Assembly (NCBI RefSeq): GCF_004362395.1
Contig: NZ_SNWE01000013.1
Location: 62,001 to 126,000, forward strand
Reading direction: 5' to 3'
DNA length: 64,000 bases
From: Salegentibacter sp. 24
GTDB taxonomy: Bacteria > Bacteroidota > Bacteroidia > Flavobacteriales > Flavobacteriaceae
Part shown: in pieces, positions 52,945 to 62,024 of the stretch
How positions within the stretch are numbered: position 1 is the stretch's first letter
Layout: the number at the start of each line of letters is the position of its first letter
Position numbers and translations under genes: made by a program
The notes under the pieces: model-generated
The model's input: the letters and a program-made list of their open reading frames with translations, nothing else
Databases searched by the model: none
What the model was told of the DNA's origin: nothing

Positions 52945-52952
52945 TATATTTG
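52945..52952 (+). promoter_or_regulatory. Probable -7 element of the blaI-M56 operon
   Basis: TATATTTG matches TAnnTTTG, 21 bases before the ATG at 52974. Confidence 0.4.
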
Positions 52953-52973
52953 AGGAAACCAAACAAATTAACG

Positions 52974-53339
52974 ATGAAAAGATTAACTAATAAAGAAGAG
53001 GAAATAATGCGCATCCTCTGGAAGTTAGAAAAGGCATTTGTAAAGGAAATAATACCTCATATACAGGATAAAAAATTGCATTATAATACCATCTCCACCA
53101 TAGTGCGCCACTTAGAAGATAAGGGTTTTGTTTCCCACCAGACCTACGGGAACACCCACCAATATTACCCGGTGATTTCCAAAGAAAAATACAGAAAGCA
53201 TATTATAAGCTTAACATCCAAGCGATTCTTTGACAATTCTTATAAAAGTATGGTTTCCTTTTTCGCTAAAGAGGAAAAAATAAGTGCTCAGGAACTAAGG
53301 GAAATCCTGGAAATCATAGAAAAAGAGAAAAAAAACTAG
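52974..53339 (+). CDS. BlaI/MecI/CopY family transcriptional repressor
   Basis: 121-residue winged-helix repressor. Motifs are LTNKEEEIMRILWKLEKAFVKEII (core KEEEIMRILWKLEKAFVKEI), HYNTISTIVRHLEDKGFVSHQT and a C-terminal dimerisation helix region (ISAQELREILEIIEKEKK). The start is set at ATG 52974 (MKRLTNKEEEIMRIL); a TTG at 52950 is in frame but is inside the -7 box. It is followed three bases later by an M56 metallopeptidase gene, the normal BlaI-BlaR1-type pair. Confidence 0.92.
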   Translation: MKRLTNKEEEIMRILWKLEKAFVKEIIPHIQDKKLHYNTISTIVRHLEDKGFVSHQTYGNTHQYYPVISKEKYRKHIISLTSKRFFDNSYKSMVSFFAKEEKISAQELREILEIIEKEKKN

Positions 53340-53342
53340 GAC

Positions 53343-55124
53343 ATGGAAACATTCTTAATTTATCTTCTAAAAAGCGCTGGGTTGCTTAGCATTTTCTATT
53401 TAGCTTATGTTGTTTTATTAAAACAAGAAACCGGTTTTCAGGGGAACCGAAGGTTTTTACTTGGAGGTATTCTGGCCTCCGCTGTATTACCGGCCATTTA
53501 TTTTACCAAAAAAGTAGCTGTTGAGACACTCCATTTTTCATCCAACGATCTCCCTATAAGTTCATCGGGAACTGCCAATGGCATTACCTCGAATTTTGGA
53601 ATATGGGAAGTCCTGGGGAGTATTTATTTTCTTATCGCGTTTTATTTTATAATCAGGCTTGCTTCCCAGCTTTACAACATATACAAACTCATCAGGAAAA
53701 ATAAAATACACAGATCAAAGAGGCTTAAGTTTATAAAAACCGAAACTGCTGTAAGTCCCTTTTCTTTTTTTCAGTTCATCGTATATAACCCCAAGGCCCA
53801 CTGCCAGCAGGATCTAAAAATGATCTTACAACACGAAAAAATTCACGCGGCCCAATGGCATTCTGTAGATATTTTAATGGCTAACCTTACCACTGCCCTG
53901 CTCTGGTTTCATCCCCTAAGCTGGTTGTATAAAAGAAGCCTGGCACAAAACCTCGAGTATATCGCCGACAGGGAAACCGTAGCGATCTCAGGGGCAAAAA
54001 GATCCTACCAGCAAGCCCTGTTAAAGGTCTCCATTGCCAATTTACAGCCCGCCATAACCAATCCCTTTTATCAATCATTTATCAAGAAACGAATTCTTAT
54101 GCTAAATAAAAAAACTTCTCCAAAAGGCGGACTTTGGAAAAAAAGCCTGGTTTTTCCTTTCGTACTGGCTTTTATGCTCGCCTTTAATGTAAAGACCGAA
54201 GCACAAGCAAGTAGATCTGCCGGGACCACTGAGGGTCATGCATATGATGAATCGGTTTCAGCGGTGATCTCAAAATTTTCAAAGCAGGAAAGCCTGGAAA
54301 AAATCTCCGACATATTTAAAAAATTCGATGTTCAACTGGAATTTTCGGAACTTCAATATTCCCACGCAGGACTTACTAAGATAAAAGTTTCCTTCTTAAA
54401 CAAAGTGACTAAGCAAACCAGAGGTTTTTCTACTGCTAATTCTGAAGGAATCGAGTCTTTTGAGATCTTTAAAAACAGAAAAGAAACCGGTATTAGAAAA
54501 GCCAATGGTAAAAAGAAGATAAAACTCGCCCAGGTTTCTAAAAAAAACAAAATCCCCGGGAATCAACTATATATTCTAAACGGCGAGGTTACCAAAAAGG
54601 AGCTTGTAGATTTTTTAAATCCCAACCTTATCGAAAGCATAAGGGTGTTTAAAGGTGATACGGCTACCTCCCTTTACGGAAAAGCAGCCAAAGAAGGTGC
54701 GGTGGTAATTACCACAAAGGTTGTGGATAAATCAAAAAAGGAATCGACCAGGCTTAAGGCGAATACTTCTCAGGTTTTATCATTTAAGAAAAAAAATGAT
54801 TATAAAATAATGACTATTAATAGCTTTGGTTATCCTGATGAACAGGTAAATGCATTTCAAAAATTTGAGGAAAAGCCAGCCTCCCAGAAAATAAATGCTT
54901 ATAAGGCAAAAGCGACAATTTTCACAAATGGAGCACTACCAGCTGCACCATTGGTTATCATTGATGGTCAAAGGAAACCCTCGGAATATTTAAAAAAGGA
55001 ACTGCAACCAGAAGATATTGAAAAGATCAATGTTCTTAAAGGAAAAATGGCTATTGAAAAATATGGTAAAGAAGCTAAGGAGGGCGTAATTGAAATCACC
55101 ACGAAAAAAGAGAGCAAAGAATAA
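53343..55124 (+). CDS. M56 family membrane metallopeptidase (BlaR1-like) with TonB-plug-like repeats
   Basis: 593-residue membrane protein. Helices near residues 3-28, 37-57 and 90-110 precede the gluzincin site HEKIH (164-168) and the following EYIADRE (Glu near 205); a further membrane segment lies near 268-284. The peptidase probably cleaves the BlaI-type repressor upon a signal. The C-terminal periplasmic half has two related repeats: LYILNGEVTKKELVDFLNPN...IRVFKGDTATSLYGKAAKEG and LVIIDGQRKPSEYLKKELQP...INVLKGKMAIEKYGKEAKEG. These resemble TonB-receptor plug segments. No penicillin-binding domain is seen. Starts three bases after blaI. Confidence 0.9.
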   Translation: METFLIYLLKSAGLLSIFYLAYVVLLKQETGFQGNRRFLLGGILASAVLPAIYFTKKVAVETLHFSSNDLPISSSGTANGITSNFGIWEVLGSIYFLIAFYFIIRLASQLYNIYKLIRKNKIHRSKRLKFIKTETAVSPFSFFQFIVYNPKAHCQQDLKMILQHEKIHAAQWHSVDILMANLTTALLWFHPLSWLYKRSLAQNLEYIADRETVAISGAKRSYQQALLKVSIANLQPAITNPFYQSFIKKRILMLNKKTSPKGGLWKKSLVFPFVLAFMLAFNVKTEAQASRSAGTTEGHAYDESVSAVISKFSKQESLEKISDIFKKFDVQLEFSELQYSHAGLTKIKVSFLNKVTKQTRGFSTANSEGIESFEIFKNRKETGIRKANGKKKIKLAQVSKKNKIPGNQLYILNGEVTKKELVDFLNPNLIESIRVFKGDTATSLYGKAAKEGAVVITTKVVDKSKKESTRLKANTSQVLSFKKKNDYKIMTINSFGYPDEQVNAFQKFEEKPASQKINAYKAKATIFTNGALPAAPLVIIDGQRKPSEYLKKELQPEDIEKINVLKGKMAIEKYGKEAKEGVIEITTKKESKE

Positions 55125-56191: not shown

Positions 56192-57460
56192 ATGATAAAA
56201 AAATACATCCTGCTTAGCCTTTTTTGTTTTTCGGCAATAGGCTTAAATTCCCAGTCCTGGAAAAAGCTACCTGCAAACGGGACGCCCCTGGAACGGCATG
56301 AAAATGCTTTTGTGCAGGCGGGGAAACGCTTTATTTTAATTGGAGGTCGCGGCAACAAACCCATAAATATTTATAATACCGAAAACCAAACCTGGAAAAA
56401 AGGTGCACAACCACCATTGGAGATTCACCATACTCAGGCGGTAAGTCTCGATGGTCTGGTTTACATTCTTGGTGCCTTTACTGGCGACTGGCCCAGTGAA
56501 GATCCCATTGCCAATATTTATATATACGATCCCCTGGAAGATCTATGGATCAAAGGCCCGGAAATTCCTAAGGACCGAAGACGTGGGGCTGCGGGAGTCG
56601 CGATCAAAAATAAAAAGATTTATTTGGTAAATGGGATTACCAATGGTCATACCTCTGGCTGGGTGAATTGGTTTGATGAATATGACCCTTATAAAAATAC
56701 CTGGAAAAAACTCCCTGATTCCCCAAATGCACGGGATCATTTTCAAACCATAACCTCGGGAAACATTCTCTTTGTCGCGGGGGGCAGGAAATCAGGAAGT
56801 GTGGAAAACAGTGGGTTCGCGGGAACCGTAAAGCCTACTGATCTCTATGATTTTGATACACAAAAATGGACAACAGTTGCTGAAATTCCAACGCCCCGTG
56901 CCGGGACGGCTATAGGGCTTCACGAGAATAACCCCGTGATCTTTGGAGGGGAAAGCCCCAAAGTGGAAGCTGCGCACCGGGAAGTAGAAATTTTTGATCT
57001 CTCCAAGGGCACCTGGGACAGTTTAGCTCCAATGGAACAGGGCAGGCACGGTACCCAGGCCATCACCCTCAATAATCAAATAATCATTGGAGCCGGTAGT
57101 GCCCATCGTGGCGGTGGCCCTGAACTCAATTCATTTGAAATATTCTCAAAAGACAATAAGTTGAATTTCAGCACCGAAGCTATCCTTGCAGGGGAATTAA
57201 AACCTTCACAAGAACATCTCAGTTTTTCGAAAGATTCCATACAAAGCCTGAAAATTGCCCATAACGGAGGAAACCAGGCCATTGTTATTACTGATATCAT
57301 TCTTAGTGAGGGTTTCCGTATGATCGATAAAAAGGAATTCCCTATTATCCTGGCCCCGAGATCAGCATTTGAATTTAAAATAAAAGGAAATCAAAACCCC
57401 GGGAAATTACTGATAAAAAGAGCGGGCAAGAAAGAAGATATTTCTGTTTCCTTAAATTAA
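56192..57460 (+). CDS. Secreted kelch-repeat protein
   Basis: 422-residue exported protein (signal MIKKYILLSLFCFSAIGLNSQ). Residues about 25-310 hold five to six kelch repeats, for example LERHENAFVQAGKRFILIGGRG, DPLEDLWIKGPEIPKDRRRGAAGV (core GPEIPKDRRRGAAGVAI), FQTITSGNILFVAGG and PTPRAGTAIGLHENNPVIFGGE. The C-terminal 100 residues look like an immunoglobulin-type Hydin/ASPM domain (LSFSKDSIQSLKIAHNGGNQ). Kelch propellers bind carbohydrates or proteins; the target is unknown. The three-gene ABC operon follows 143 bases downstream. Confidence 0.8.
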   Translation: MIKKYILLSLFCFSAIGLNSQSWKKLPANGTPLERHENAFVQAGKRFILIGGRGNKPINIYNTENQTWKKGAQPPLEIHHTQAVSLDGLVYILGAFTGDWPSEDPIANIYIYDPLEDLWIKGPEIPKDRRRGAAGVAIKNKKIYLVNGITNGHTSGWVNWFDEYDPYKNTWKKLPDSPNARDHFQTITSGNILFVAGGRKSGSVENSGFAGTVKPTDLYDFDTQKWTTVAEIPTPRAGTAIGLHENNPVIFGGESPKVEAAHREVEIFDLSKGTWDSLAPMEQGRHGTQAITLNNQIIIGAGSAHRGGGPELNSFEIFSKDNKLNFSTEAILAGELKPSQEHLSFSKDSIQSLKIAHNGGNQAIVITDIILSEGFRMIDKKEFPIILAPRSAFEFKIKGNQNPGKLLIKRAGKKEDISVSLN

Positions 57461-57603: not shown

Positions 57604-59268
57604 ATGAATAAAATAAAACCAGGCACGACCGTAAAACGACTGTGGAATTTACTCAAATTAGATAAGCGAGATGTAAAGCATATTCTTTTTTACGCACTTT
57701 TTGCTGGTTTAATGAACCTGACTGTTCCACTGGGGATCCAGGCTATAGTAAATTTAATCCAGGGGGGAAGAGTAAGTACCAGCTGGGTGATTTTAGTAAT
57801 TCTGGTTACCCTTGCCGTAGGTTTGGTCGGTGTTTTTGAATTGCTTCAACTTCGTTTAGCTGAAAACATCCAGCAAAAAATCTTTACCCGCGCCAGTTTT
57901 GAATTTTCATACCGGTTTCCTAAAATTAAAAGTGAAGCATTACAAAATATATATCCCCCCGAACTAGCCAACCGCTTCTTTGACACCATCACTGTTCAAA
58001 AGGGGGTAAGTAAAATGTTACTGGACTTGCCATCGGCCACAGTTCAAATTATTTTAGGAGTCATCCTGTTGTCCCTGTACCACCCATTTTTTATCCTGTA
58101 CGGATTACTTCTTGTCCTTTTACTCTATATCGTTTTTAAATTTACCGCCGCAAAAGGCTTAAAAACCAGTTTAGATGAGTCTAAGAACAAATACCAGGTA
58201 GCCTACTGGATTCAGGAGATCGCACGGAATTTAAACAGTTTTAAAATTTCAGGCCGCAGTAAATTAGCGATAGAGAAAAACGACAGGCTGACGGAAAAAT
58301 ACCTAAAAGAAAGAGAAGGGCATTTTGATATACTTAAAATCCAGTATATAAAACTTATTGTTTTTAAGGTTTTAGTAGCCGGTGGGCTGCTTGCCATCGG
58401 AGGGATGCTGGTATTGAATCAACAAATGAACATCGGACAATTTGTAGCCGCGGAGATTATTATTCTTTTGATCATTTCATCGGTAGAAAAATTAATTCGT
58501 GGTCTGGAAGATATTTATGACACGCTTACTTCCCTGGAAAAACTGGGACAGGTGGTCGACAAACCATTGGAAGCCTTTGAAAACCAAAATCAGGTTGATG
58601 CTTCCCAGGGGATTCAGATAGAATTTAAAGATGTGGCCTTTGAACCCGAAGGCTATTCGGTTCTAAAAAACATTAACTTTACTATTGGTCCAGGGAAAAT
58701 CTTATTAATTTCCGGACCTGCCGGTAATGGCAGAACCAGTTTATTAAAACTTATCTCGGGCATATTCACTCCTACCCAGGGAAAGATATATATAAACAAT
58801 ACCGCCCGGCATTCCTTGGTTTTAAATCAATATAGGCAGCACCTTGGCACCTTTTTACCCGATGAAGCTCCATTTGAAGGTAGTCTATGGGAAAACATTA
58901 CCTTTGGAGATGAATCAATTTCAGACCAAAATATCGATTGGGCCCTGGAGCATTCCGGCTTAAAAGACTTTGTGAAGGATCAGGCCGCGGGACTTTACAC
59001 ACGGATTCATCCTGAGGGTCGTTACCTATCAACACTCATTGCCAAACGTATAATTCTGGCAAGAGCGATAGTCAAAAAACCATCAGTCCTAATTTTAAAA
59101 GAACCCCTCGAGAAATTCGAATTTCGAGAAAAGAAAAGGATTTTAAAATTTTTAACCGATCCCCAAAATAAATGGAGTCTTATTATTGCCAGTAACGACG
59201 AGTTATGGAAAGAAGTATGTGATCAACGCCTGGAATTACAGGAAGGTAGAATCGTCAATTCCCTGTAG
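57604..59268 (+). CDS. ABC exporter-like protein with degenerate nucleotide-binding domain
   Basis: 554-residue protein with an N-terminal exporter membrane domain (about residues 25-305, helices such as YALFAGLMNLTVPLGIQAIV and ILVTLAVGLVGVFELLQL) and a C-terminal ABC-type domain (about 338-554). The catalytic motifs are altered: Walker A GPAGNGRTS has Arg377 instead of Lys; the Q-loop region FLPDEAPFEG lacks Gln; the signature is LSTLI (475-479), not LSGGQ; Walker B is LILKEPLE with Lys499 instead of Asp; the switch His is Ser530 (IASNDE). It looks catalytically dead or strongly altered. HlyD follows two bases later. Confidence 0.85.
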   Translation: MNKIKPGTTVKRLWNLLKLDKRDVKHILFYALFAGLMNLTVPLGIQAIVNLIQGGRVSTSWVILVILVTLAVGLVGVFELLQLRLAENIQQKIFTRASFEFSYRFPKIKSEALQNIYPPELANRFFDTITVQKGVSKMLLDLPSATVQIILGVILLSLYHPFFILYGLLLVLLLYIVFKFTAAKGLKTSLDESKNKYQVAYWIQEIARNLNSFKISGRSKLAIEKNDRLTEKYLKEREGHFDILKIQYIKLIVFKVLVAGGLLAIGGMLVLNQQMNIGQFVAAEIIILLIISSVEKLIRGLEDIYDTLTSLEKLGQVVDKPLEAFENQNQVDASQGIQIEFKDVAFEPEGYSVLKNINFTIGPGKILLISGPAGNGRTSLLKLISGIFTPTQGKIYINNTARHSLVLNQYRQHLGTFLPDEAPFEGSLWENITFGDESISDQNIDWALEHSGLKDFVKDQAAGLYTRIHPEGRYLSTLIAKRIILARAIVKKPSVLILKEPLEKFEFREKKRILKFLTDPQNKWSLIIASNDELWKEVCDQRLELQEGRIVNSL

Positions 59269-59270
59269 TT

Positions 59271-60638
59271 ATGCTAAATATTTCTGAAGAAAAACTCAAC
59301 CAGCACATAGATATTACCGATTCCAGATCGGGTAAATTCGTGTTTTTTAGAAAACACTACGCCATCTTTAATAAAGTTCTTATTGGGTTATTTATATTAT
59401 TTATTGTTATTCTATTTTTACCCTGGACACAAAATATAAGGGCTACAGGGAATGTTACCACCCTTAGCCCTGAGCACAGGCCACAAACCATCCAGTCTCC
59501 CATTCCGGGAAAGATTGAGAAGTGGTATATCGAGGAAGGAGATTTTGTGCAGAAAGGAGATACTATTTTAAAAATATCAGAGGTTAGTAGTGACTATTTT
59601 GACCCTCGCTTAATTAGTAGAACTTCCAGTCAGATAGAAGCAAAAAATCAATCGGCCCTATCCTACGACGATAAGATAGCTGCCCTGGAGGGACAACTGG
59701 CAGCCCAGCAAAACGAAAGAGCCTTAAAACAACAACAGGCGGCCAACAAATTGATACAGGCTGGTTTAAAGGTTCGAAGCGATAGCATCAAACTGGAAGC
59801 AGCCAAAACAGAAGTCGAAATTGCCAAAACGCAATTTGAACGCATGGAAACCCTGCAGCAGGAGGGCTTAAAATCTTTAACCGATTTAGAAGCCAGAAGA
59901 CTCAGGCTTCAGGAGGCACAGGCACAGTTGATCGCCCAGCAGAACCAGCTTTTATCCAGCAGAAATGAGGTCATAAATGCTGAAATTGAAATAAACAGGA
60001 TTACCTCTGAATACGCCGATAAAATGTCCAAAACACGGCAGGAAATCTTCACTACCCAAAGTATACAGTATGGTACCCGTGCTGAAGTTGATAAGCTGGA
60101 AATTCAGCTTTCAAATTATCAGCAACGCAGTGATCTCTACTACATTGTAGCTCCCCAGGATGGTTACATAAATCAGGCCTTAAAAGCTGGACTGGGCGAA
60201 ACGTTTTCCCAGGGAGAAAAACTGGTAGGGATCATGCCTTCCAATTACCAACTGGCAGTAGAGACTTATATTAGACCTTTGGACCTACCTTTAATCCATG
60301 TAGGAGAAGACGTTCGCATTCAATTTGATGGCTGGCCTTCGGTAATATTTAGTGGCTGGCCAAACCTTTCCTTTGGTACCTATGGGGCTGAAGTTGTGGC
60401 TGTGGAGAATTATATTTCTGCAAATGGAAAGTACCGCGTTTTACTGGCTCCCGATCCCGATGACAATCCCTGGCCACAGCAAATTGGAATTGGTAGCGGT
60501 GCACAAACAATTGCACTTCTGGAAACCGTTCCTATCTGGTATGAACTTTGGCGGAACCTAAATGGTTTCCCTCCCAATTATTACCAGCCAGGAAGTAATT
60601 CCCAGGGTGAAAACACCATGAAAATCAATAAAAAATAG
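59271..60638 (+). CDS. HlyD-family periplasmic adaptor protein
   Basis: 455-residue membrane-fusion protein joining an inner-membrane exporter to an outer-membrane channel. One N-terminal helix (VLIGLFILFIVILFLPWTQ) is followed by the lipoyl half-motif TIQSPIPGKIEKWYIEEGDFVQKGDTIL (core PGKIEKWYIEEGDFVQKGD), a long coiled coil (about residues 120-280) rich in Glu and Gln, and the second lipoyl half DGYINQALKAGLGETFSQGE. This matches type I secretion and efflux adaptors. It is two bases from the upstream ABC gene and nine from the TolC gene. Confidence 0.93.
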   Translation: MLNISEEKLNQHIDITDSRSGKFVFFRKHYAIFNKVLIGLFILFIVILFLPWTQNIRATGNVTTLSPEHRPQTIQSPIPGKIEKWYIEEGDFVQKGDTILKISEVSSDYFDPRLISRTSSQIEAKNQSALSYDDKIAALEGQLAAQQNERALKQQQAANKLIQAGLKVRSDSIKLEAAKTEVEIAKTQFERMETLQQEGLKSLTDLEARRLRLQEAQAQLIAQQNQLLSSRNEVINAEIEINRITSEYADKMSKTRQEIFTTQSIQYGTRAEVDKLEIQLSNYQQRSDLYYIVAPQDGYINQALKAGLGETFSQGEKLVGIMPSNYQLAVETYIRPLDLPLIHVGEDVRIQFDGWPSVIFSGWPNLSFGTYGAEVVAVENYISANGKYRVLLAPDPDDNPWPQQIGIGSGAQTIALLETVPIWYELWRNLNGFPPNYYQPGSNSQGENTMKINKK

Positions 60639-60647
60639 AACGGTAAT

Positions 60648-62024
60648 ATGCGTTTAGTACTTTATTTTTCTATTGCCTTTTTAGTGACTTCTTCCGCCTT
60701 TGCTCAGGGGGACAGCCTTGGTTATAATGAATTTTTAACCAGGGTAATTAGCGAGCATCCCCTGGTCAAACAGGCAAAGCTCGTCAGAAATATAGCAGAT
60801 GCACAAGTCCAGTCAGCCAGAGGTGCATTTGACCCCAGATTTGTTGTAGCTTATAAAGAAAAAGAATTTAAGGGAACCGAGTATTACGATCTACTGGATG
60901 CCCAATTACAGGTGCCGATGTGGTATGGCCTTAAATTAAAGGGTGGTTTTGCGCAAAACCAGGGTACTTATTTAAATCCTCAAAACCAGCTTCCCGAGGC
61001 AGGACTCTTCCAGGCGGGTATGATTTTATCACTAGGAGAAGGTTTATGGATTAATTCCCGAATGGCGGGTTTAAGAAAAGCACAGGCCTACAGAGAACAA
61101 AGCCGTGCTCAGCAAAAATTGATGGTAAACAATGTATTATTAGAGGCATCTTTTGCTTATTTTGAATGGCTAGAGGCATATCAAAAATTACAAATTTTCA
61201 CAGCTATTTTAGAAAATGCCAATGAGCGCTACAGCGGCATAAAACGCGGGGCACAGACTGGTGAACTGGCAGGCATAGATACCCTGGAAGCAAGACTTAA
61301 CTTACAAAAACGAAGATTAAAAGCCAATCAGGCGCAGGTGGAACTTAACAAAGCAAAGTTAGTGCTTTCCACTTATTTATGGTCACAGGACCAACCGTTG
61401 CTTTTGCAGGAACAGGTCTGGCCAGTTGGTTTCGATGCTATTTTTTCCAGTTTAATCTCGGAGATTCCGGAAGAAAATTTGGAAACACATCCCCAGCTAC
61501 AGTATTACCGTCAGAAAATAGAAGCTCTTGAAATCGAAAAACGCTATCGTTTCAATAAGTTATTACCCAAAATAGATTTGGAATATAATTTTTTATCGCA
61601 AGAACCTGATAATTTTGAAACCTTTAATTCCAAGGCTTATAAGGCTGGTTTAAAATTTTCCATGCCATTATTTCTTCGTAAGGAGCGCGGGGATCTTAAA
61701 ATAGCAGAATATGAGTTACAGGATGCACGACTGGAACTTAGTCTAAAAGACACCCAGTTACAAGCTAAAATCAACGCTCTGCAGCAACAACTTCAAGGCT
61801 TTCTGGTACAAATTGAAATGACAGAACAACTGGTAGCCGATTCCAGAACTTTACTCGATGGGGAGGTGCGTAAGTTCAATTTTGGGGAAAGCTCCATCTT
61901 TTTAATCAATACACGGGAAACAAAATTAATAGAGGCAAAATTGGAACAATTAGATCTTCAAATTAAGATTTTAAAAATCCAGGCGGAATACCTGCAAGCA
62001 CTGGGCAGCCATGCGGGGCAATAA
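60648..62024 (+). CDS. TolC-family outer-membrane channel
   Basis: 458-residue outer-membrane factor with signal MRLVLYFSIAFLVTSSAFAQ. The mature protein opens LGYNEFLTRVISEHPLVKQAK and is dominated by long helices with hydrophobic heptads, for example LEASFAYFEWLEAYQKLQIF and the second half LDGEVRKFNFGESSIFLINTRETKLIEAKLEQLDLQIK (core NFGESSIFLINTRETKLIEA). This is the usual TolC repeat architecture. Last gene of the ABC-HlyD-TolC operon. Confidence 0.93.
   Translation: MRLVLYFSIAFLVTSSAFAQGDSLGYNEFLTRVISEHPLVKQAKLVRNIADAQVQSARGAFDPRFVVAYKEKEFKGTEYYDLLDAQLQVPMWYGLKLKGGFAQNQGTYLNPQNQLPEAGLFQAGMILSLGEGLWINSRMAGLRKAQAYREQSRAQQKLMVNNVLLEASFAYFEWLEAYQKLQIFTAILENANERYSGIKRGAQTGELAGIDTLEARLNLQKRRLKANQAQVELNKAKLVLSTYLWSQDQPLLLQEQVWPVGFDAIFSSLISEIPEENLETHPQLQYYRQKIEALEIEKRYRFNKLLPKIDLEYNFLSQEPDNFETFNSKAYKAGLKFSMPLFLRKERGDLKIAEYELQDARLELSLKDTQLQAKINALQQQLQGFLVQIEMTEQLVADSRTLLDGEVRKFNFGESSIFLINTRETKLIEAKLEQLDLQIKILKIQAEYLQALGSHAGQ

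Follow-up and report, generated by a model that had tools for sequence, protein, structure and literature searches.

In Salegentibacter sp. 24, a HlyD-family adaptor and a TolC-family channel are encoded in one operon (Table 1) with an ABC protein whose ATPase domain (NBD) is degenerate. If such an operon still exports something, then what drives export? We studied the operon within a 64,000-nucleotide stretch of DNA (the window, by which we mean the whole stretch that was analysed) and compared it to relatives in other genomes.

An operon with the genes of a type I secretion system

A preliminary description of the sequence had given the order of the three genes and gaps of 2 bases (ABC gene to hlyD) and 9 bases (hlyD to tolC); the ORF coordinates and the Pfam matches agree. 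All three genes run in the same direction, and their reading frames are intact, as had been stated. The 554-aa protein matches both ABC_membrane and ABC_tran. An ABC transporter, a HlyD-type adaptor, and a TolC-type channel are thus encoded together, as in a type I secretion system (T1SS). The ATP-hydrolysing NBD motifs of a T1SS are missing from the ABC protein, and it scores far under the curated cut-offs for T1SS permease/ATPases (162 bits versus 693.1 for the LssB model and 142.9 versus 725.55 for HlyB), as it does for all 25 NCBIfam models shown. Its nearest named homologues are eight Salegentibacter records (77-89% identity), and within its own genome, its 21 other matches share 20-35% identity in the region that is matched. 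A scan for defence systems with PADLOC gave only weak partial matches, all to the ABC protein, and we dropped that reading.

The ABC protein is predicted to have the type IV ABC exporter fold, with a membrane domain and an NBD. The predicted model (pLDDT 78.6, pTM 0.71, with residues 158-168 below 50) matches PCAT1 in Foldseek with E = 3.8e-24 and TMq = 0.64 (rmsd 14.0 over the whole chain), and its best fold matches also include TM287/288, TmrAB, and HlyB (8dck). The Pfam model for SbmA is not among the protein's matches (E up to 0.001).

Table 1. Features of the operon, with positions in the window.
Feature	Position	Strand	Evidence
Pseudo-ABC exporter, 554 aa: six-helix membrane domain and degenerate NBD	57604..59268	+	Intact ORF, Pfam
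Membrane domain (residues 8-322), the better-conserved part	57625..58569	+	Mean identity to homologues
Glu284, TM6	58453..58455	+	Invariant in 84/84 rows, including 20 without an NBD in the same ORF
Glu295, TM6	58486..58488	+	Acidic in 81/84 rows
Asp306, lower TM6	58519..58521	+	Acidic in 82/84 rows
Degenerate NBD, about residues 336-554	58609..59265	+	Pfam, alignment, conservation
Arg377 at the Walker A Lys column	58732..58734	+	Alignment; Arg in all 9 Salegentibacter rows
Pro419 at the Q-loop Gln column	58858..58860	+	Profile alignment
Ser-Thr-Leu (476-478) where the signature S-G-G is expected	59029..59037	+	Profile alignment
Walker B: Lys499 replaces Asp; Glu500 kept	59098..59103	+	Profile alignment
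Asn531 at the switch-His column	59194..59196	+	Profile alignment
HlyD-family periplasmic adaptor, 455 aa	59271..60638	+	Intact ORF; Pfam HlyD_3
TolC-family outer membrane channel, 458 aa	60648..62024	+	Intact ORF; Pfam OEP

Catalytic residues are missing from the window's protein and from its family

We fixed the motif columns with 34 ordinary exporters placed on the family profile (five from the window's genome and 29 orthologues of one of them). All 34 have the Walker A Lys, the Q-loop Gln, the Walker B Asp, and the switch His; the signature S-G-G is present in 34, 33, and 34 of them, and the catalytic Glu in 33. At the A-loop Tyr column, where 24 of the 34 have Tyr, the window's protein has Pro348. 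The replacements at Walker A, the Q-loop, the signature, and Walker B that the preliminary description had listed are all borne out by this alignment. It had placed the switch His at Ser530, which is one residue off (Table 1). Its claim that every catalytic motif is lost is right in the main point, and slightly too strong because Glu500 remains.

Homologues (E up to 1e-60, one match each) are present in 148 of 249 sampled Flavobacteriaceae genomes, including the window's own, and nearly all of them are full-length open frames, contig ends aside. The alignment that we read has 81 rows: one for the window's copy, 51 for the named loci L009-L059, and 29 for the best of the other loci. Of these rows, 79 are distinct (L018/L090 and L019/L073 are identical pairs). 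We left out L060, which is partial, and L061-L063, with 26-29% identity. None of the 81 rows has the Q-loop Gln or a Gly at either signature position, and the switch His is kept in just 4. The Walker B Asp column has Asp in one row and Lys in 67, and the catalytic-Glu column has Asp in 49, Glu in 22, and Asn in 7. Three residues ahead of the Q-loop column, at column 416, 57 rows carry a Gln (the window's is not among them); given the spacing to the flanking Gly and Phe, we place it outside the Q position. Because the same losses recur across the 81 rows, chance is excluded.

Walker A is different: its Lys column has Lys in 68 of 81 rows and Arg in 13, and its glycines are kept in 81, 75, and 80 rows, so the loss of the Lys is late. 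The degenerate NBD is the normal state of the rows that we read, and only the change in Walker A is late. Whether the window's substitutions are conserved among relatives, which the preliminary description had left as a check, has a split answer: the Q-loop, the signature, and Walker B are degenerate throughout, or nearly throughout, the rows that we read, and the Walker A Lys is intact in most of them. Homologues with canonical motifs in the same gene context, which would have pointed to a recent lesion, did not turn up in the family sample that we read. The intact Walker A of most relatives read, the TetR gene that heads the operon elsewhere, and the NBD-less and fused forms (see below) go beyond what the preliminary description had covered.

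Both halves of the protein are conserved

Mean identity to homologues is 0.684 for the membrane domain and 0.444 for the NBD across 29 rows (0.672 and 0.421 across 43 rows). Within eight Salegentibacter, the values are 0.916 and 0.799. The membrane domain was the more conserved half in 80 of 80 comparisons (two duplicate pairs included). For an ordinary exporter and its 29 same-family orthologues, the NBD was the more conserved half in 29 of 29 (0.772 versus 0.576). In the only pair usable for dN/dS (L011-L013, both from Salegentibacter; most other pairs were saturated, with dS over 1 or undefined), the membrane domain gave a ratio of 0.023 and the NBD one of 0.064. Judging from these substitution patterns, both halves are under purifying selection, with the NBD constrained less. 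Since the window's protein retains a full-length NBD under purifying selection, this domain still does something. Conservation and dN/dS rule out a recent lesion or a pseudogene. Together with the degenerate rows across the family, the selection on both halves supports the earlier view that this is a pseudo-ATPase and not ordinary decay.

The operon is kept together, with no ordinary ATPase gene near 51 of 52 loci

We examined the gene neighbourhoods of 52 loci (the window and 51 named loci). In all 52, hlyD is the next gene, and in 16 of these full-length operons the ABC gene overlaps it by 8 bases. TolC is present in 51, and the remaining locus ends at a contig edge. A TetR-family gene is directly upstream at 39 of the 52 loci, usually close to the ABC gene (33 of 37 measured spacings are between -14 and +6 bases), and the single upstream regulator that we scanned matches TetR_N. 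None of the 9 Salegentibacter loci has this TetR gene, and no clear homologue of it turned up in the window's genome (best E = 0.008).

We found no ordinary ABC ATPase gene in 51 of the 52 neighbourhoods. The exception, L056, has an ordinary exporter gene on the opposite strand, and this is the only locus of the 52 with a nearby candidate for the linked partner half-transporter that a heterodimer would have.

Relatives with and without an NBD

For a wider search we used a profile of 66 rows, with thresholds of 1e-80 for the order, 1e-80 for the phylum, and 1e-60 for the class. There were matches in 90 of 246, 89 of 345, and 210 of 396 genomes, respectively (these sets share genomes). We read 66 places with their surroundings, one of which, L168, came from the search within the family. 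They were picked to cover a wide spread and unusual lengths, and their proportions are therefore not population frequencies. Among the 132 rows (66 from the profile and 66 read), there are 98 pseudo-ABC proteins, 11 with a membrane domain only (including L199), 9 fused to HlyD, 8 with Walker A, the Asp-Glu of Walker B, and the switch His, and 6 that lack Walker A, in L053 by a single substitution. L159 and L206-L209 have no Walker A. Walker A, Walker B, and the His are kept by 8 of the 11 distant Bacteroidota relatives that we read. Even the 8 "catalytic" rows lack the Q-loop Gln, and their signatures vary.

The NBD-less forms, 10 with the membrane domain only and 9 fusions of the membrane domain to HlyD, all adjoin tolC or hlyD-tolC. 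The membrane-domain-only gene overlaps hlyD by 8 bases in 7 of 10 operons. Behind each of the 9 fusions comes tolC, and a divergent TetR gene is present at 8 of them. The stretches that we fetched around the fusions contain no gene for an ordinary-type NBD. At one of the 10 membrane-domain-only loci (L201), a gene for an ordinary ABC ATPase lies 1300 bases beyond tolC, which we take to be incidental. We do not count L199 as a third loss of the NBD: it has a separate overlapping ORF with an NBD remnant, in a fragmented assembly, and a frameshift is possible. Three NBD-less proteins that we scanned (two membrane-domain-only and one fusion) match ABC_membrane (PF00664) and do not match the SbmA model (E up to 0.1). 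Some relatives have N-terminal extensions. By eye, L137 seemed to have a C39-like domain there, and we rejected this because Pfam found none in L139, the single extended protein that we scanned (E up to 0.1). In HlyB-HlyD, the ratio is 1:1, with three HlyB dimers to six HlyD, according to excerpts of PMC11026475; a 1:1 fusion of the membrane domain to HlyD fits this six-to-six ratio.

Outside the phylum, three plasmid loci from Sphingomonadaceae, which are all that we read of the weaker plasmid matches, have the same gene trio, with an NBD in which we recognise no motif. These three proteins have Glu at position 284 and Ala at 295; by hand count, 306 is Asp, Asp, and Glu.

In a tree of the membrane domain (84 rows), all of the catalytic rows lie in one group of 11 (8 catalytic and 3 not), and the other 73 rows include none. 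We also built a careful tree, with an AU test, from 77 of the 84 rows. We left out L199 for its possible frameshift, and L210, L211, L143, L058, L208, and L209 as long branches. The membrane-domain-only rows form one clade (100/99) and the fusions form another (100/100). A single origin of the NBD-less forms was rejected (p-AU = 0.008, for a group that was named after the first tree and not beforehand). The plain reading is that the NBD was lost twice while HlyD and TolC were kept, although the trees do not themselves tell gain from loss. Genera g304, g306, and g308 each contain both full-length and NBD-less copies. This does not show recent loss within a genus: their full-length copies lie in other branches, which implies replacement or transfer.

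An acidic ladder in TM6 and relaxed coupling loops

Columns 87, 127, 141, 284, 295, and 306 of the membrane domain are acidic in at least 80 of the 84 rows each, and 284, 295, and 306 are all acidic in 79. A single predicted helix (278-316) carries E284, E295, and D306 at intervals of 11 residues, so they share one face (0, 20, and 40 degrees). Ordinary exporters are hydrophobic at 284 (30 of 30 rows with a residue there) and never acidic at 295; at 306, two are acidic among the residues listed. By a profile alignment and our own count, the counterpart of E284 in human ABCB1 is the Phe335/Phe336 pair of TM6. The distant catalytic rows are mostly acidic at these positions (8/8 at E284, 7/8 at E295, and 6/8 at D306), so the presence of the ladder does not indicate that the NBD has been lost, and we abandoned the idea that the two are tied. 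We also ruled out that E284 corresponds to E314 of LmrA, because the spacing to Walker A differs: E284 is 93 residues before Arg377, and E314 is 74 residues before the Walker A Lys388.

On the cytoplasmic side, K133, K137, and N123 are kept in at least 83 of the 84 rows. We set the limits of the coupling loops ourselves (105-118 and 206-222) and expressed their identity as a ratio to that of the remaining membrane domain. In groups with an NBD, these ratios are 0.63-0.94 for loop 1 and 0.78-0.89 for loop 2. Both loops are relaxed in the fusions, at 0.24 for loop 1 and 0.16 for loop 2. Where the membrane domain stands alone, loop 2 is relaxed (0.55) and loop 1 is not (0.96).

Proposed function

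Hydrolysis of ATP by the window's NBD is very unlikely on its residues, and relatives manage without any NBD. We lean towards the view that the operon encodes an ABC-fold tripartite exporter that has abandoned ATP hydrolysis and is perhaps driven by protons or by a substrate gradient. For independence from ATP, the sequences give strong evidence. This envelope exporter would be built of the ABC-exporter membrane domain, HlyD, and TolC. The dimer of membrane domains may still alternate between inward and outward states, and would pass a small molecule or a peptide to the HlyD-TolC duct. The remnant NBD in the window's protein may hold the dimer together or act as a regulatory brake. Energy would most likely come from the proton gradient, acting on E284, E295, and D306, or else from the substrate's own gradient. 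In many relatives, the operon would be turned on when the substrate appears, by the TetR-family regulator encoded at its head. The preliminary description had offered another energy source or a regulated conduit as possibilities, and these gain support because relatives dropped the NBD entirely.

Our inferences on continued transport and on the energy source draw on NBD-less LmrA and MsbA, where the published results are mixed, and on SbmA. According to excerpts of PMC2704374 and PMC6155054, NBD-less LmrA carries out proton-coupled transport, and the pH-driven part requires a Glu in TM6; in one assay, it gave no current. In the accessible part of PMC8660845, NBD-less MsbA is termed active in drug transport, and it did not rescue growth of a conditional E. 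coli strain. SbmA is described, in a portion of PMC13316013, as a natural proton-driven transporter with the ABC fold that lacks the NBD, has lost the coupling helices, and has a glutamate ladder.

Could the protein instead bind ATP and hardly hydrolyse it, with the nucleotide gating a conduit or sensing the energy state of the cell? This is unlikely, in our view. It would suit the Walker A that most relatives keep (both the Lys and the glycines) and the full-length NBD under purifying selection. But in all 9 Salegentibacter rows Arg replaces the Lys, the window's protein has Pro348 at the A-loop Tyr column, L159, L206-L209, and the three Sphingomonadaceae proteins have no Walker A, and two lineages have no NBD. 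It is quite improbable that the protein forms a heterodimer with another half-transporter, or that an ATPase encoded elsewhere in the genome docks onto it. In favour, exporters are well known in which one half of a heterodimer is degenerate, and two of these, TM287/288 and TmrAB, count among the best fold matches; the conserved K133, K137, and N123, as well as coupling loop 1 of the membrane-domain-only set, could serve for docking. Against this, either composite site would be broken, because the NBD has neither its own catalytic residues nor a signature. The preliminary description's suggestion of work with another ATPase loses support from the near absence of ordinary ABC ATPase genes in the neighbourhoods read (the exceptions are L056 and, among the membrane-domain-only loci, L201) and from the decayed loops of the fusions.

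We are similarly doubtful that there is no transport at all, with the membrane domain serving as a sensor, or as a base on which HlyD and TolC are assembled or anchored. A fusion to HlyD gives the 1:1 HlyB:HlyD ratio (excerpts of PMC11026475), which would suit a scaffold just as well as a pump. But a passive anchor would be a poorer fit to the invariant charged residues of TM6 than a transport path. A six-helix platform of 320 residues would also be costly, given that HlyD proteins are anchored in the membrane by themselves. At a single site, the loss of a catalytic domain does resemble gene decay, and the matches in G006 and G009 contain an internal stop. Given nearly all full-length homologues in 148 of 249 genomes, dN/dS far below 1, and invariant membrane columns, we give almost no credence to decay or to an error of assembly.

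Relation to known systems

Our preferred reading, an exporter that runs without ATP hydrolysis, has partial precedents. The operon shares with HlyB-HlyD-TolC the three adjacent gene families and the type IV ABC exporter fold (as predicted), but the window's protein lacks hydrolysis-competent NBD motifs and a C39-like domain. SbmA/BacA (SLiPT), as presented in a portion of PMC13316013, has the ABC-exporter fold, no NBD, conserved acidic residues, and lost coupling helices, and the NBD-less relatives here may be compared to it. SbmA imports peptides, whereas this family is partnered with HlyD and TolC, and intermediate stages of NBD loss survive in it: the window's protein retains a degenerate NBD and two lineages of relatives have none. 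Truncated LmrA and MsbA suggest that an ABC membrane domain alone can transport (excerpts of PMC2704374, PMC6155054, and PMC8660845), but those are laboratory truncations of active ATPases, whereas here evolution made the cut, and the Glu is at a different position. TM287/288 and TmrAB also have a degenerate NBD of the same fold (a portion of PMC7756269), but they keep one working site, and here there is no canonical site and no linked partner gene. In the open PMC literature, we found no paper on this pseudo-ABC family by title or by the start of the abstract; most subscription papers and bioRxiv preprints lie outside that scope.

Implications

We suggest, tentatively and with somewhat more doubt than belief, that these operons are a separate and widespread class of tripartite exporter, in which the ABC membrane domain has turned into an ion-driven secondary transporter that feeds HlyD and TolC, with all stages of the conversion still alive. 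The stages would be a near-canonical ATPase, a pseudo-ATPase, an eroded NBD, an NBD-free membrane domain, and a fusion to HlyD. Several of these genes are annotated as "ABC transporter ATP-binding protein" and would be misnamed. ABC transporters are defined by their use of ATP, and one family appears to have given up ATP and later lost its ATPase domain on at least two occasions. It is an old question whether an ABC membrane domain can by itself be called a transporter, and this natural series makes it testable on natural proteins.

Upstream genes

In most of the relatives that we read, the gene upstream of the pseudo-ABC gene is a TetR-family gene; in the window, this place is occupied by a Kelch-repeat protein, which 8 of the 9 Salegentibacter loci have there. 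The M56 peptidase gene further upstream also matches the TonB-receptor Plug domain.

Genes upstream of the pseudo-ABC gene in the window, and the separate ORFs at homologous locus L199
Sequence	Coordinates	Feature
Window	52950-55124	Penicillinase-repressor-like gene, then M56 (BlaR1-type) peptidase gene
Window	56192-57460	Kelch-repeat protein
L199	3439-6486	Two overlapping ORFs (membrane domain; NBD remnant) ahead of hlyD

Variation among homologues

At nine homologous loci (L216-L224), the ABC membrane domain is joined straight to HlyD in a single protein of 747-836 amino acids, without an NBD, and tolC adjoins. (The longest, at L220, has a 5' extension and its start is uncertain.) The separate ORFs at L199 are either a real split or a frameshift. 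Some pseudo-ABC proteins of the class (L133-L136, L160, and L161) have about 155 additional N-terminal amino acids of unassigned kind, and more distant relatives have other N-terminal extensions of about 130-250 amino acids.

Homologues are also found on plasmids. Sphingomonadaceae plasmids (L255-L257) carry the trio of ABC-exporter-like, HlyD, and TolC genes, with an unrecognisable NBD. In Riemerella anatipestifer, a 37%-identical homologue with adjoining HlyD and TolC genes is encoded on plasmids (hits H3-H6) that are about 102-105 kb long.

Genome G031, which is assigned to the window's genus, contains a 45%-identical copy (L168) that is from a different branch and is accompanied by a TetR gene, which suggests replacement through transfer.
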